This document shows, piece by piece, positions 9,142-41,855 of a stretch of 64,000 nucleotides of DNA (the first letter of the stretch is position 1; each line of letters opens with the position of its first letter). The notes beneath the pieces are model-generated. The model saw only the letters and a program-made list of their open reading frames with translations. It did not search any database and was not told where the DNA came from. This DNA is from Bacilli bacterium. Its GTDB lineage: Bacteria > Bacillota_I > Bacilli_A > RFN20 > CAG-826. The DNA lies in the NCBI GenBank assembly GCA_017635465.1, contig JAGBLL010000041.1, positions 81,685 to 145,684 on the forward strand, given 5' to 3'. The position numbers were made by a program, and so were the translations under genes.

Positions 9142-10692
9142 CTATTTCGCGGTTTCGATAGCGCGATATTCGCGGATGACTGAAACTTTGATTTGACCTG
9201 GATAAGTCATTTCATTTTCGATACGTTCTTTGATGTCTCTAGCTAATTTGAATGCACCAACATCATCGATCTTTTCTGGAATAACCATGACACGTAATTC
9301 ACGGCCAGATTGCATCGCATATGATTGATAAACACCATCGTATGACTTGCAGATTTCTTCAAGTTGTTCGATACGTTTGATGTAGTTTTCTAAGATTTCA
9401 CTTCTAGCACCTGGTCTAGCAGCGCTTAATGTATCAGCGGCTTGGACTAAGTTAGCGATGATGTATTTAGCAGGAACATCGCCATGGTGAGACTCAATAG
9501 AGTTAATAACGACATCACCTTCACCATATTTCTTGGCTAATCTAGCGCCGATTTCAACGTGGCTACCATCCATTTCGAAGTCAGCGGCTTTACCGACATC
9601 GTGTAATAAACCAGCGCGTTTAGCTAAGTTTTGATCTAAACCAAGTTCCGCGGCCATGATGCCACATAAATAAGCGACTTCAACAGAGTGGTCTAAAGCG
9701 TTTTGACCATATGAGGTACGATATTTTAATCTACCAACATAGTCTAATAAGTCTTTGTTGATTCTTGGTAAACCAAGTTTGAAGGCCACTTCTTGACCAG
9801 CTTTATGAATGCTTTCGTCGACTTCTTTCTTTGTCTTTTCAACGATTTCTTCAATTCTTCCTGGTTGAATACGACCATCTTTAATTAATGCTTCAAGTGA
9901 TAATCTAGCGATTTCTCTTCTAATTGGGTTGAAGCATGAAACTGTAATAACTTCTGGAGTGTCATCGATAATTAAATCGACACCTAATAATTGTTCTAAG
10001 GAACGAATGTTGCGGCCTTCACGACCGATGATTCTACCTTTCATTTCATCGCTTGGAAGAGCGACAACTGAAACAGTTCTTTCACTGGTCACTTCTTGAG
10101 CGTAACGAGTGAGGGCTAAACCTAATAATTCTTTAGCTTTAGTATCACATTCTTCTTTAGCTTCCTCTTCTTTTTGCTTAATGAACGCAGCGATTTCTTT
10201 ACTGACTTTAGATTCCACACGATTGAATAATTCATCACGGGCTTCTTGAGTGGACATTTGGGCAACCTTTTCAAGTTCGACGATAATACTATCAATCTTT
10301 TCTTGTAATTGGGCTTCTTTACGGTCCATGTCTTTTAAGCGTCTAGATAATGTTTCGTTCTTTTCATCTAAAGCGTTTTCTTTAGAAAGAAGAGCGGCAT
10401 CACGACGATCGATGCTTTGCTCTCTTTGTTGAAGAGATCTTTCTTGTTGTTGCAATTCTTGTTTTCTTTCGTGGATTTCACGATTTGCTTCTTGTTTTAA
10501 TTCATTGACAGCTTGCTTACCATCAATTTGTGCGTTCTTGGTAATATGTTCGGCTTTAATTTCAGCATCACGAATAATTTTCTTAGCGTTATTCTTAACA
10601 ATATTGTTGCGAATAAAAGGCACTAAGAACATTAATGAGGCACCGGCTAAAAGACAAACCACACCAATAACAATTCCTAACCATACTGGCAT
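9142..10692 (-). CDS. rny: ribonuclease Y
   Basis: This 516-residue membrane-anchored endoribonuclease initiates mRNA decay. Residues 3-27 form a membrane helix, about 30-190 are a charged coiled coil, a KH domain follows with [16 protein letters not shown], and the HD domain carries [10 protein letters not shown]...[10 protein letters not shown]. Length is normal for the family. It is preceded by a ribosome-binding site (AGAAAGGAAG) and a structured leader of about 165 bases with its own promoter, which suggests regulated expression. It heads the rny-ymdB-miaB unit. Confidence 0.97.
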
Positions 10693-10903: not shown

Positions 10904-10931
10904 TGGTCAGAAATGAAATAGATGATATAAT
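10904..10931 (+). promoter_or_regulatory. promoter of antisense RNA A
   Basis: Plus strand: -10 TATAAT at 10926-10931 with TGGTCA as a 16-base-spaced -35 (10904-10909). The equivalent hexamer is conserved in the second locus. Confidence 0.55.
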
Positions 10932-10937
10932 AAGACC

Positions 10938-10993
10938 ATAAGAACGAATCCTCTAAACACTTTTTGGTAGAAGTTTAAAGGGATTCTTTTTTT
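10938..10993 (+). ncRNA. antisense RNA A (candidate type I antitoxin)
   Basis: A short plus-strand RNA is predicted from about 10938 to a terminator: GAATCC (10946-10951) pairs with GGATTC (10981-10986), an inner TAAAC/GTTTA stem encloses a loop with TTGG, and seven T follow. It converges on toxin ORF A and overlaps its stop codon and mRNA 3' end. It aligns base for base with antisense RNA B, including the 5' CCATAAGAA and the loop. TTGG fits a YUNR U-turn, common in antisense-RNA loops. Confidence 0.65.
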
Positions 10994-11075
10994 AAACCAA
11001 CTTGATTAGTAGGAATAAAAAGAGGCATATCACAAAAAGAATCAAAAGCATTTTGAATTCATTTAATAGTTTCAA
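10992..11075 (-). CDS. 27-residue hydrophobic peptide, candidate type I toxin A
   Basis: A TTG-initiated ORF encodes 27 residues: polar start MKLLNEFK, a hydrophobic block of about 16 residues (MLLILFVICLFLFLLI), and end KLV. The near-perfect ribosome-binding site AAAGGAGGTG is 7 bases before the start. Upstream, ACCTC (minus strand) can pair with GAGGT of that site, stacked on TTCAC-ATTA-GTGAA, which would hide it in the full-length mRNA. The layout (single-helix peptide, sequestered site, convergent antisense RNA at the 3' end) is that of type I toxin loci such as txpA/ratA or bsrG/SR4. The sequence does not look like Fst, TxpA, BsrG or TisB. Toxicity is inferred. Confidence 0.7.
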   Translation of the reverse strand: MKLLNEFKMLLILFVICLFLFLLIKLV

Positions 11076-11120
11076 TGCTTATCACCTCCTTTCACTAATG
11101 TGAATAGAGGTATTCGTTTA

Positions 11121-11145
11121 GAGTTTTAACGTCTTGTCTTTGACG
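11121..11145 (-). repeat. 25-bp direct repeat, copy 1 (leader of toxin A)
   Basis: The 25 bases are identical to 11363-11387. On the minus strand each lies near the predicted 5' end of a toxin mRNA and can form a small hairpin (CGTC/GACG). Copy 1 also contains the -35 of antisense RNA B on the opposite strand. Confidence 0.85.
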
Positions 11146-11161
11146 AGCATAATGTTATAAT
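11134..11161 (+). promoter_or_regulatory. promoter of antisense RNA B
   Basis: Plus strand: -35 TTGTCT (11134-11139), 16-base spacer, -10 TATAAT (11156-11161). It overlaps, in the opposite direction, the likely weak promoter of toxin A (CATTAT at 11149-11154). Confidence 0.65.
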
Positions 11162-11167
11162 GAAGCC

Positions 11168-11227
11168 ATAAGAAGGAAGTCCTCACAACACTTATTGGTT
11201 AGAAGTTATAGGGAGACTTCTTTTTTT
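11168..11227 (+). ncRNA. antisense RNA B (candidate type I antitoxin)
   Basis: A plus-strand RNA of about 60 bases ends at GAAGTC (11176-11181) pairing with GACTTC (11215-11220) followed by seven T. It is clearly homologous to antisense RNA A (shared CCATAAGAA, AACACTT, TTGG and AGAAGTT blocks). It overlaps the stop codon and 3' end of toxin ORF B in convergent orientation. Confidence 0.65.
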
Positions 11228-11315
11228 ACTTTAATAAGATTTTTATTAAGCAAAGAAGAAGGCATACCAAAGCGATTTTGATGATTATTAAGTAATCTCT
11301 ATGTTCACTCTTCAA
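11226..11315 (-). CDS. 29-residue hydrophobic peptide, candidate type I toxin B
   Basis: A TTG-initiated ORF encodes 29 residues: polar start MKSEHRDY, hydrophobic middle LIIIKIALVCLLLCLI, end KILLK. GAGGTG lies 7 bases upstream, in the same context (GGTGAT-NNG-CATTG) as toxin A. Minus-strand ACCTCA in the leader pairs with TGAGGT over the ribosome-binding site, replacing the A-copy stem with a different sequence, so the fold is conserved by compensatory change. Peptide sequence is less conserved than gene layout. Likely inserts in the inner membrane; function inferred from architecture only. Confidence 0.7.
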   Translation of the reverse strand: MKSEHRDYLIIIKIALVCLLLCLIKILLK

Positions 11316-11362
11316 TGCAAATCACCTCACTCTCTAGTGTTAGATTATGAGGTCTTCCTTCC

Positions 11363-11387
11363 GAGTTTTAACGTCTTGTCTTTGACG
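11363..11387 (-). repeat. 25-bp direct repeat, copy 2 (leader of toxin B)
   Basis: Identical to 11121-11145. It begins one base after the -10 of the toxin B promoter, so it is close to the 5' end of that mRNA. Confidence 0.85.
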
Positions 11388-11388
11388 T

Positions 11389-11418
11389 ATTATAAGCACA
11401 CTTAAAACAGCTGTTTAG
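11389..11418 (-). promoter_or_regulatory. promoter of toxin B mRNA
   Basis: Minus strand: -10 TATAAT at 11389-11394 with TAAACA about 17 bases upstream as a weak -35. It lies between recA and the toxin B leader. Confidence 0.5.
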
Positions 11419-11449: not shown

Positions 11450-12445
11450 TTATTCAACAATGCCGTTTTTGATTTTTTCTAATAAATCTTTAGCGACATC
11501 TTCATTGTCTTTTAAATATGCCTTAGCAGCGTCACGGCCTTGAGCAATTTTGCTGCCATTATATTCGAACCAGGAACCACTCTTCTTGATGAGGCCTAAT
11601 TCGACTGAACGATCAAGGATTTCACCTTCTTTGGAAATGCCTTGGCCATAGATAATATCGATTTCACATTGTTTGAAAGGTGCGGAAACTTTGTTTTTAA
11701 CAATCTTAACGCGGCAAGTATTACCAACGATTTCGTTTCCGGCTTTAATTGCTTCAGTACGACGAATATCAATACGAACAGAAGCATAGAACTTTAAAGC
11801 GCGACCACCTGAGGTTGTTTCTGGGTTACCATACATTACACCAACTTTTTCACGTAATTGGTTAATGAAGATAACCGCACATTCTTTCTTGTTTAAAACA
11901 CCAGCAATTTTACGCATTGCTTTAGACATTAATCTTGCTTGTAAGCCAACAGAGCTATCGCCCATTTCCCCGTCTAATTCCGCTTGTGGAACTAAGGCTG
12001 CAACTGAGTCAACAACGATTAAGTTAATGCTACCTGAACCCGCTAACATTTCAACGATTTCAAGAGCTTGTTCACCATTATCTGGTTGGGAAAGGATTAA
12101 TTCATTAATATCAACGCCTAAGTTTTTAGCATAGACTGGATCGATGGCGTGTTCAGCATCAATGAATGCTGCTCTACCACCATTCTTTTGACATTCTGCA
12201 ATAGCGTGTAAAGCTAATGTTGTTTTACCACTACTTTCAGGTCCAAAGATTTCAATGATTCTACCTTTTGGATAGCCACCTACACCAATAGCTTCATCAA
12301 TTAATAATGAGCCAGATGGAATTGCGTCCACATCAACATTGTCTCTATCGCCTAAGCGCATGATTGCACCTTTGCCATAGAGCTTTTCAATTTGCTTCAA
12401 TGTTTCTTCTAATGTGTTTTTTAAGTTTTCTTTTTCTTTTGCCAT
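11450..12445 (-). CDS. recA: recombinase RecA
   Basis: This 331-residue protein drives ATP-dependent strand exchange. Walker A GPESSGKT is at residues 68-75, with the [22 protein letters not shown] segment, the L2 region and [22 protein letters not shown]. It is slightly short, with a reduced acidic tail. AGAAGGAG precedes the ATG at a good distance. No Firmicutes LexA box (CGAAC-N4-GTTCG type) was seen upstream. Instead a GGACAAAATT-N11-CCTAC element lies across the end of cinA. It is the last gene of gpsB-rnpB-pgsA-cinA-recA. Confidence 0.98.
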
Positions 12446-13630: not shown

Positions 13631-13968
13631 TGAGTATCCGGTCCTATAAGCCATGTTCTGTTTTGACAACCATTTATCTAAGCTAAGCTTACAAGGATCA
13701 ATTCAGTTCTCTACCTTATCTCCCCTACCAAATTTGGGTTTCTCGCTTGTGGGGTTTACCGCGTTCCACTTTATTATTTCTAATAAACTACGTCACTGTG
13801 GCACTTTCAGGGATTCGACCATGGTTTCCTTTAGGCATCCTCCCGCCGTTACGTACTCCTACGTACCTAGCGTTATTTTTTCCGCTAGCGCAATCACTAC
13901 GAGCGTCGCAGCTCGTGCGAGCATGGACTTTCCTCTACAAATGCAGCGGTTGTCCAGACCGGAATTTC
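13631..13968 (-). ncRNA. rnpB: RNase P RNA, Bacillus type (class B)
   Basis: Minus strand: the universal block GAGGAAAGTCCATGCTCGC is present near the 5' end and ACAGAACATGGCTTAT near the 3' end. Terminal helix P1 closes by CCGGTC with GACCGG. It processes pre-tRNA 5' ends. It sits directly after gpsB, as in Bacillus, and directly before pgsA without a terminator, so it is probably cut from a longer transcript. Ends are approximate. Confidence 0.95.
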
Positions 13969-21630: not shown

Positions 21631-21640
21631 AAAAAACTAC

Positions 21641-21742
21641 TTCTTTCATCCAGACTTTACTGTCGCCACTTGAATTTCACAAGTTCCTGCCCTATTAGGC
21701 TCGCGGGGTTTACCGCCGGTCGCTTTTCGCTGCCCTGAAGTG
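21641..21742 (-). promoter_or_regulatory. FMN riboswitch (RFN element)
   Basis: Minus strand: conserved blocks AGGGCAG, GCGGTAAACCCCGCGAGCC, AGTCTGGATGAAAGAAG in canonical order. FMN binding would favour the terminator before ribU and shut off riboflavin import. A TATAAT (21749-21754) just upstream is the promoter -10. Confidence 0.97.
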
Positions 21743-21778
21743 ATTACTATTATATACTCTTATTTAATAAATAAAATA

Positions 21779-41417: not shown

Positions 41418-41502
41418 TGGTGCGGCTAGCAGGAATCGAACCTGTACGGGTTGCCCCACTAGATCCTAAGTCTAGCGCGTCTGCCAGTTCCGCCATAGCC
41501 GC
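41418..41502 (-). tRNA. tRNA-Leu (UAG)
   Basis: The 85-base cloverleaf has acceptor GCGGCTA/TAGCCGC, a long variable arm, anticodon loop CTTAGGA giving UAG, and encoded CCA. Confidence 0.96.
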
Positions 41503-41512
41503 AAAAATTAAA

Positions 41513-41531
41513 GGAGGGGACGTGCCCCTCC
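41513..41531 (-). terminator. GC-rich hairpin between tRNA-Thr and tRNA-Leu
   Basis: GGAGGGG pairs with CCCCTCC; minus strand continues TTTAATTTTT. It may be a partial terminator or a processing structure. Confidence 0.45.
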
Positions 41532-41544
41532 GATAATACTTAGT

Positions 41545-41620
41545 TGGTGCCGTCTATCGGAATCGAACCAACAACCTACTGATTACAAATCAGTTGCTCT
41601 GCCAATTGAGCTAAGACGGC
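41545..41620 (-). tRNA. tRNA-Thr (UGU)
   Basis: The 76-base cloverleaf has acceptor GCCGTCT/AGACGGC, anticodon loop TTTGTAA giving UGU, and encoded CCA. Confidence 0.96.
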
Positions 41621-41625
41621 ATTTA

Positions 41626-41700
41626 TGGTGGACACTGTAGGGATCGAACCTACGACCTCTTCCGTGTGAAGGAAGCGTTCTCCCGCTGAACTAAGTCTCC
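41626..41700 (-). tRNA. tRNA-Val (CAC), with an acceptor-stem mismatch
   Basis: The 75-base cloverleaf has anticodon arm CTTCC-TTCACAC-GGAAG, anticodon CAC, and encoded CCA. The acceptor is GGAGACT against AGTGTCC, which leaves G4 opposite G69. Other stems pair. CAC reads only GUG. Confidence 0.9.
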
Positions 41701-41711
41701 AGCGCTCAATT

Positions 41712-41740
41712 ACTATAACAAACTAGTATTTATTAATCAA
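41712..41740 (-). promoter_or_regulatory. promoter of the tRNA Val-Thr-Leu unit
   Basis: Minus strand: -35 TTGATT (41735-41740), 17 bases, -10 TATAGT (41712-41717). Confidence 0.6.
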
Positions 41741-41765
41741 CAAAAAAATCACTTAAATAAGTGAC
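41737..41765 (-). terminator. terminator of tRNA-Ile
   Basis: Minus strand: TCACTT-ATTT-AAGTGA followed by seven T. Confidence 0.75.
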
Positions 41766-41778
41766 CTTGTATATTTAC

Positions 41779-41855
41779 TGGTGGGCCCAAGAAGACTTGA
41801 ACTTCCGACCTCGCCCTTATCAGGGGCGCGCTCTAACCAACTGAGCTATGGGCCC
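41779..41855 (-). tRNA. tRNA-Ile (GAU)
   Basis: The 77-base cloverleaf has acceptor GGGCCCA/TGGGCCC, anticodon loop CTGATAA giving GAU, and encoded CCA. TTGATT and TATATT with 17-base spacing lie just upstream. Confidence 0.96.

Follow-up and report, generated by a model that had tools for sequence, protein, structure and literature searches.

Two tandem loci between rny and recA as probable members of an uncatalogued type I toxin-antitoxin-like family with a proposed SD/3'-end switch

Two mini-genes on the − strand, loci A and B, are flanked by rny (9142-10692, −) and recA (11450-12445, −) in the window, the 64,000-nucleotide stretch of a Bacilli contig that was analysed here. They are probably two tandem units of an uncatalogued chromosomal family of type I toxin-antitoxin-like genes that carries an SD/3'-end switch. 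Covariation demonstrates the hairpin that sequesters the SD, a long-distance 5'-3' helix, the extension of that helix through the anti-SD (aSD), and a hairpin within a conserved 5' motif termed CORE. The CORE motif and the 3' end of the mRNA as a second, better-covarying partner of the aSD go beyond the preliminary description of this DNA.

The toxin-like ORFs of locus A (MKLLNEFKMLLILFVICLFLFLLIKLV; 27 aa; 10992..11075, −) and locus B (MKSEHRDYLIIIKIALVCLLLCLIKILLK; 29 aa; 11226..11315, −) both have a TTG start and fall within a family alignment of hydrophobic peptides of 25-29 aa, which share the conserved motif ICLLLxLL and in most cases end in a C-terminal Lys/Arg. The family ORFs, ORF A among them, gave a pN/pS of 0.32 over 176 non-independent pairs, consistent with purifying selection and supporting the earlier proposal that the ORFs are translated. 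One related unit (L022:1522, − strand) has a stop at codon 3 with every RNA element intact, as expected of a decayed toxin whose control RNA was kept. No peptide homology was found in Pfam, NCBIfam, PHROG or PDB. Searches of 39 members against NCBIfam and Pfam gave no match at E<=0.05 to the Fst/Ldr or TxpA/BsrG models, and the Fst/Ldr signature, P/D/S/TXXXG with a conserved Trp (PMC7472228), was absent as a general feature when scored by Pro (7 of 86 peptides) and Trp (4 of 86). Assignment to a known family was rejected, Pfam, NCBIfam, PHROGs, PDB and Rfam all being negative. Rfam matches elsewhere in the window, at 13642-13961 (−), 21634-21746 (−) and 41421-41855 (−), were ordinary: RNase P RNA class B, an FMN riboswitch and four tRNAs.

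Homologues were first reached through CORE, which led to four more copies in the window's own genome and to relatives elsewhere. A covariance model built from 31 leaders was used to scan 224 genomes of the host's family and a 296-genome sample of the class. Matches were obtained in 62 of the 224 genomes, giving about 100 related loci, and strong matches in the class sample were confined to the host's family; inspection of 109 unique matches left about 104 plausible units. The named records containing relatives are MAGs of uncultured Bacilli from rumen, gut and faeces, assemblies of which may miss or collapse copies. The window's own genome holds six copies, namely A, B and four others in a tandem array that precede an ORF read from its sequence as fructose-bisphosphate-aldolase-like (fba). 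The slot between rny and recA is common to several genomes of the genus. Genomes of the L155, L156, L158 and L185 type (G179, G241, G178, G185) have five or six units arrayed in tandem, or as many as eight dispersed over one genome, and the divergence of the 5'-3' arms in such multi-unit genomes suggests diversification against cross-silencing between units. The open-access literature searched contained no description of the family.

That the ORFs encode small membrane regulators rather than toxins, with RNA control serving dosage or stress, appears unlikely. Toxicity of the peptide is a prediction, and the copies between rny and recA and before fba have no evident mobile element beside them, as a regulator would allow; however, tandem multiple copies encoding a 27-aa hydrophobic peptide under tight RNA control are typical of type I toxins, and L022 is a degraded copy that stops early.

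Leaders A and B were folded both locally and in longer context. The SD-sequestering hairpin of locus A (11084..11111, −) consists of an outer helix in which the aSD, ACCUCU (11111->11106), forms six pairs with the SD, GGAGGU (11089->11084), the last being G.U, followed by a 1x1 internal loop and a helix of UUCAC (11104->11100) with GUGAA (11095->11091) closed by a 4-nt loop. In locus B (11324..11353, −), ACCUCAU (11353->11347) forms seven pairs with GUGAGGU (11330->11324), and an internal loop separates these from an inner UCUA/UAGA helix. Both hairpins are the MFE and the centroid structure, at −13.9 (A) and −13.2 kcal/mol (B), with z values of −4.7 and −4.1, and 1 of 200 shuffles was equally good. 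The pairing of ACCTC with GAGGT at the ribosome-binding site of locus A, and of ACCTCA with TGAGGT in locus B with different inner bases, both put forward in the preliminary description, were thus borne out by the folding that it had suggested as a check. The inner TTCAC/GTGAA helix of locus A also pairs as described, but "stacked" on the outer helix is slightly too strong a word given the intervening internal loop.

The arms of the SD helix covary across the family. In a MAFFT alignment of 31 leaders, its seven outer pairs were 96% paired and three had changed on both sides; none of 500 shuffles and none of the slid controls reached the covariation score of the structure comprising the SD helix and the 5' CORE helix, and RNAalifold retrieved the SD helix unaided. 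Among 106 distinct rows, in an alignment that was fitted to the structure and hence leans towards it, five of the seven pairs showed double changes, one position running through U·G, C-G, G-C and A-U. Over the family as a whole, 94–96% of cells preserve the helix, and double changes are numerous; given that the copies are related, such cell counts differ from independent events. Of 102 leaders, 101 had a paired SD in their local MFE; in the remaining one (L206:484) the pairing is in a shifted register. Cognate aSD:SD duplexes were better than non-cognate ones among 39 representatives below 75% identity (z=−7.0, p<=0.00005). Pairing has therefore been kept despite sequence change, as had been argued from the two loci, and the compensatory changes whose absence from homologues would have spoken against selection on the fold are present. 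Chance complementarity to a G-rich SD is ruled out by the covariation and cognate tests.

The aSD has a further partner. The family 5'UTR, GGAACGGAG-ACCTC…, shows complementarity of 14–19 nt with the 3' end of the mRNA (…TGAGGCTCCGTTCTT), which contains a copy of the SD core followed by 7-9 nt complementary to the 5'UTR, the 3' arm being written CTCCGTTC. In locus A the 5' arm AACGAAU (11112..11118, −) runs on into the aSD, and the 3' arm (10943..10953, −) is GAGG-AUUCGUU, in which GAGG (10953->10950) is an SD look-alike and AUUCGUU occupies 10949->10943. In locus B the 5' arm is GAAGGAAG (11354..11361, −) and the 3' arm GUGAGG-A-CUUCCUUC (11172..11186, −), with the SD look-alike GUGAGG at 11186->11181 and CUUCCUUC at 11179->11172. 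These arms were identified by full-length folds and duplex predictions, and covariation additionally marks both arms of locus A and the 3' arm of locus B. Since the 3' end contains an SD look-alike, the aSD has two mutually exclusive partners, the SD and the 3' end.

Pairing of the 5' and 3' arms is kept through change, with GGAGCCAAAACCTCGCAA facing CTGCGAGGTTTGGCTCTT, GGAACAGAGACCTCGC facing GCGAGGCTCTGTTCTT and GGAATCGATTACCTC facing GAGGGGTCGATTCTT in different units. The 8-pair helix was 93% paired with five pairs changed on both sides, and the 14-pair helix extended through the aSD was 90% paired with 10 doubly changed pairs; the 5'-3' covariation score was matched by 0 of 500 shuffles and no slid control. 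Covariation of this helix is even stronger than that of the SD helix. In permutation tests on the 39 representatives, cognate duplexes of the 5' segment with the 3' end (z=−13.6) and of the aSD with the 3' end (z=−11.8) were favoured over non-cognate ones (p<=0.00005). The bases that follow ACCTC track the 3' end in their changes (p<=0.00005) and not the SD side (p=0.08).

Upstream of both leaders lies CORE, a conserved 24-nt block (GTCAAAGACAAGACGTTAAAACTC). That of locus A, GUCAAAGACAAGACGUUAAAACUC (11121..11144, −), is a hairpin GUC-AAAGACAA-GAC followed by UUAAAACUC at the mRNA 5' end; that of locus B is at 11363..11386 (−). The motif is found in about 100 loci, where its stem covaries, exchanging bases yet staying paired (GAC/GUC in 51, GUC/GAC in 38 and GGC/GCC in 10), while hardly any variation affects its loop AAAGNNAA or the tail AAAACUC. 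A variant with a 9-nt loop, AAAGNNAAA, like that of the phage version, occurs in a distant toxin subgroup (L160:299, L161, L162, L163; G185). An interpretation of CORE as a DNA promoter or operator is disfavoured; an RNA element fits better with the stem-swapping changes among GUC/GAC, GAC/GUC and GGC/GCC and with the position of the motif, which is at or after +1. The −35 (TTGTCT) of the antisense promoter next to it may nevertheless be provided by part of the motif.

CORE is not confined to toxin loci. In the leaders of Zobellviridae and similar phages it follows σ70-like promoters at 28-35 nt, and it further turns up close to phage tRNA genes and ahead of both a phage capsid-like gene and genes of Gracilibacteria. 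The 24-25-nt hairpin with AAAACUC was observed in toxin-unrelated phage and Gracilibacteria leaders at L069:1201, L071:1201, L073:908, L074:10565, L075:7741, L077:2370, L066:10296, L042:5252 and L044:4407, several of them shortly after a sigma70-like promoter. CORE or CORE-like sequences beside phage tRNA genes, which are untranslated transcription units (L070:1201, L072:1013, L064:6799, L065:4099, L068:579), would fit a role in antitermination. In a chance test on viral contigs, intact-stem patterns gave 4, 3 and 2 matches and the intact GGC/GCC pattern 0; the reversed pattern gave 0, a broken GAC/GAC stem 0, and a broken GTC/GTC stem 7, all from one phage sequence. Rfam 15 gave no match at CORE sites, and no description of the motif was found in the open-access literature searched. 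A NusA-type site (AACUC) was also considered, for which the open-access literature searched gave no confirmation. A nut/put-like or 5'-protective role is speculation. It is a tentative and on balance doubtful proposal that CORE (N-GUC/GAC/GGC-AAAGNNAA-complement + UUAAAACUC), in phage leaders and in these toxin mRNAs alike, acts as a hitherto undescribed leader-RNA element of bacteria and phages by recruiting a conserved host factor, for example as a nut/put-like antitermination or stability element, so that toxin synthesis may be tied to the phage or transcription state.

The transcripts, their ends and the role of an antisense RNA as antitoxin are predicted from sequence. In 21 of 105 loci, compared with ∼1.7 expected, the end of a TATAAT-like box lies exactly 6 nt upstream of CORE, so the mRNA there probably starts with the G of that motif. 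Only some of the loci have a clear toxin promoter. For toxin B a promoter TAAACA-17-TATAAT (11389..11417, −) is predicted from its consensus match; its −10 box lies only 2 nt from CORE, and +1 would therefore fall inside the CORE stem. On the opposite strand, an antisense RNA overlapping the 3' end of mRNA A (10938..10993, +) is predicted from a promoter TGGTCA-16-TATAAT (10904-10931) and a T-run at ∼10987-10993, and one for locus B (11168..11227, +) from TTGTCT-16-TATAAT (11134-11161) and a T-run at 11221-11227. Throughout the family the antisense −10 keeps a fixed distance from the 3' arm (TGNTATAAT in 68 of 91 loci, with a gap of 8 in 58), and a terminator T-run is present in 90 of 91 loci. 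The predicted antisense RNA, ∼55-60 nt long and convergent with the toxin mRNA, accompanies the SD stem in nearly all loci.

The antisense 5' end prefers its cognate SD region to others (z=−4.8), a weak but cognate-specific trans pairing that would be expected if, as in Fst, the antisense RNA acted mainly through its own aSD on the mRNA SD in the manner of DRa/DRb, the 5'-3' complementarity serving only to shield the mRNA ends and so stabilise the transcript. RNA I of Fst is stabilised by an upstream helix, and a 5' stem-loop sequesters the SD (PMC7472228). This account is nonetheless very unlikely: at roughly 5-7 bp the trans pairing is short, it results automatically from the other two covariations, and covariation of the 5'-3' helix far exceeds what a stabiliser needs. 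Long direct repeats of the strict Fst type (DRa/DRb) were not found beyond a short SD-core repeat, GNGAGG.

In the SD/3'-end switch proposed here, the mRNA would start at or near CORE and encode the 25-29-aa hydrophobic peptide with its SD buried by the aSD. Pairing of the aSD with the SD would hold translation off, and its capture in a 14-19-nt 5'-3' helix with the 3' end would release the SD. The nascent mRNA would be silenced by the hairpin, which is the first to form; once complete and free of antisense, the mRNA could shift the aSD to the 3' end and so expose the SD; and the antisense RNA, by binding the 3' end, would give the aSD back to the SD and probably recruit RNase III. We infer both a switch in this direction and a membrane-toxic peptide.

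Partition functions were calculated for 39 representatives as the nascent leader, the free full-length RNA and the RNA with its 3'UTR blocked as if antisense-bound. In the nascent leader the mean aSD:SD probability was 0.93 and the SD was unpaired at 0.05. In the free full-length RNA, aSD:3' end pairing reached 0.51 versus 0.36 for aSD:SD, with the 5'-3' helix at 0.90 and the SD unpaired at 0.18; blocking the 3'UTR restored values of 0.89 (aSD:SD) and 0.05 (SD unpaired). The aSD favoured the 3' end in 23 of 39 representatives. The SD was often captured elsewhere even once the aSD had moved, hence the low mean for unpaired SD, and the SD-open conformer cost 1.4-11.6 kcal/mol (28 loci). In loci A and B of the window the hairpin was closed in all three states (aSD:SD 0.95-0.99), so the switch is drawn from the family as a whole and is not seen in these two copies.

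The full-length MFE structures of A and B, with z values of −3.7 and −5.1, contain the 5'-3' helix and the SD hairpin side by side. Such coexistence is what would be expected if, in the manner of Hok and AapA, the 5'-3' helix kept the finished mRNA locked and inert while the SD remained in its hairpin, 3' trimming activated this mRNA, and the SD hairpin were a co-transcriptional safety lock; AapA3 combines metastable nascent SD hairpins, a 5'-3' interaction and 3' processing (PMC6733600). This arrangement seems fairly unlikely here. The 3' end is an SD copy that takes the anti-SD, with a covarying extension, whereas that of hok and AapA is an anti-SD; the preference of the aSD for the 3' end in the majority of representatives also runs against it; and a 3'-trimmed mRNA would keep the closed local hairpin, judging from the 3'UTR-blocked and nascent folds.

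By sequence criteria the family is uncatalogued and appears to work like Fst, BsrG and AapA while belonging to none, so that the earlier comparison "as in Fst or BsrG" stands as an analogy in SD sequestration and not as family membership. Like Fst/par of pAD1 (RNA I/RNA II), a Gram-positive system, the loci combine a predicted short convergent antisense over the mRNA 3' end, a small hydrophobic peptide and an SD-hiding 5' stem-loop; unlike it, the peptide is unrelated, with no general PXXXG or Trp signature, and there is a conserved CORE hairpin together with a 5'-3' helix that competes for the aSD. In txpA, bsrE and bsrG the SD is sequestered in 4-5 GC pairs, the antisense overlap is 100-140 bp, and in bsrG antisense binding to the 3' end strengthens SD sequestration (PMC6562991). 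As in bsrG/SR4 and txpA/RatA of B. subtilis, the predicted antisense lies at the mRNA 3' end and the SD in a short GC stem, but the overlap is ∼55-60 nt, there is no sequence relation and the 3' end carries an SD copy. With aapA/IsoA of H. pylori and hok/Sok the loci share a long-distance 5'-3' interaction, multiple chromosomal copies and a nascent SD-hiding hairpin; the 3' element of those systems is an anti-SD that hides the SD, whereas here it is an SD look-alike (GAGG) that would take the aSD.

These loci add a large, tandem-amplified type I toxin-antitoxin-like family of uncultured rumen and gut Bacilli that is invisible to protein searches and whose natural covariation is dense enough for three RNA helices to be read directly. 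If the competition between SD and 3' end is true, the antisense RNA would work by returning the anti-SD, and the 3' end would be opposite in sign to that of hok and AapA. A tug-of-war for the aSD, together with CORE as a host-factor element, would then give type I toxins a novel switch logic, and CORE, which ties the toxin mRNAs to phage leaders, offers a testable handle on their control.
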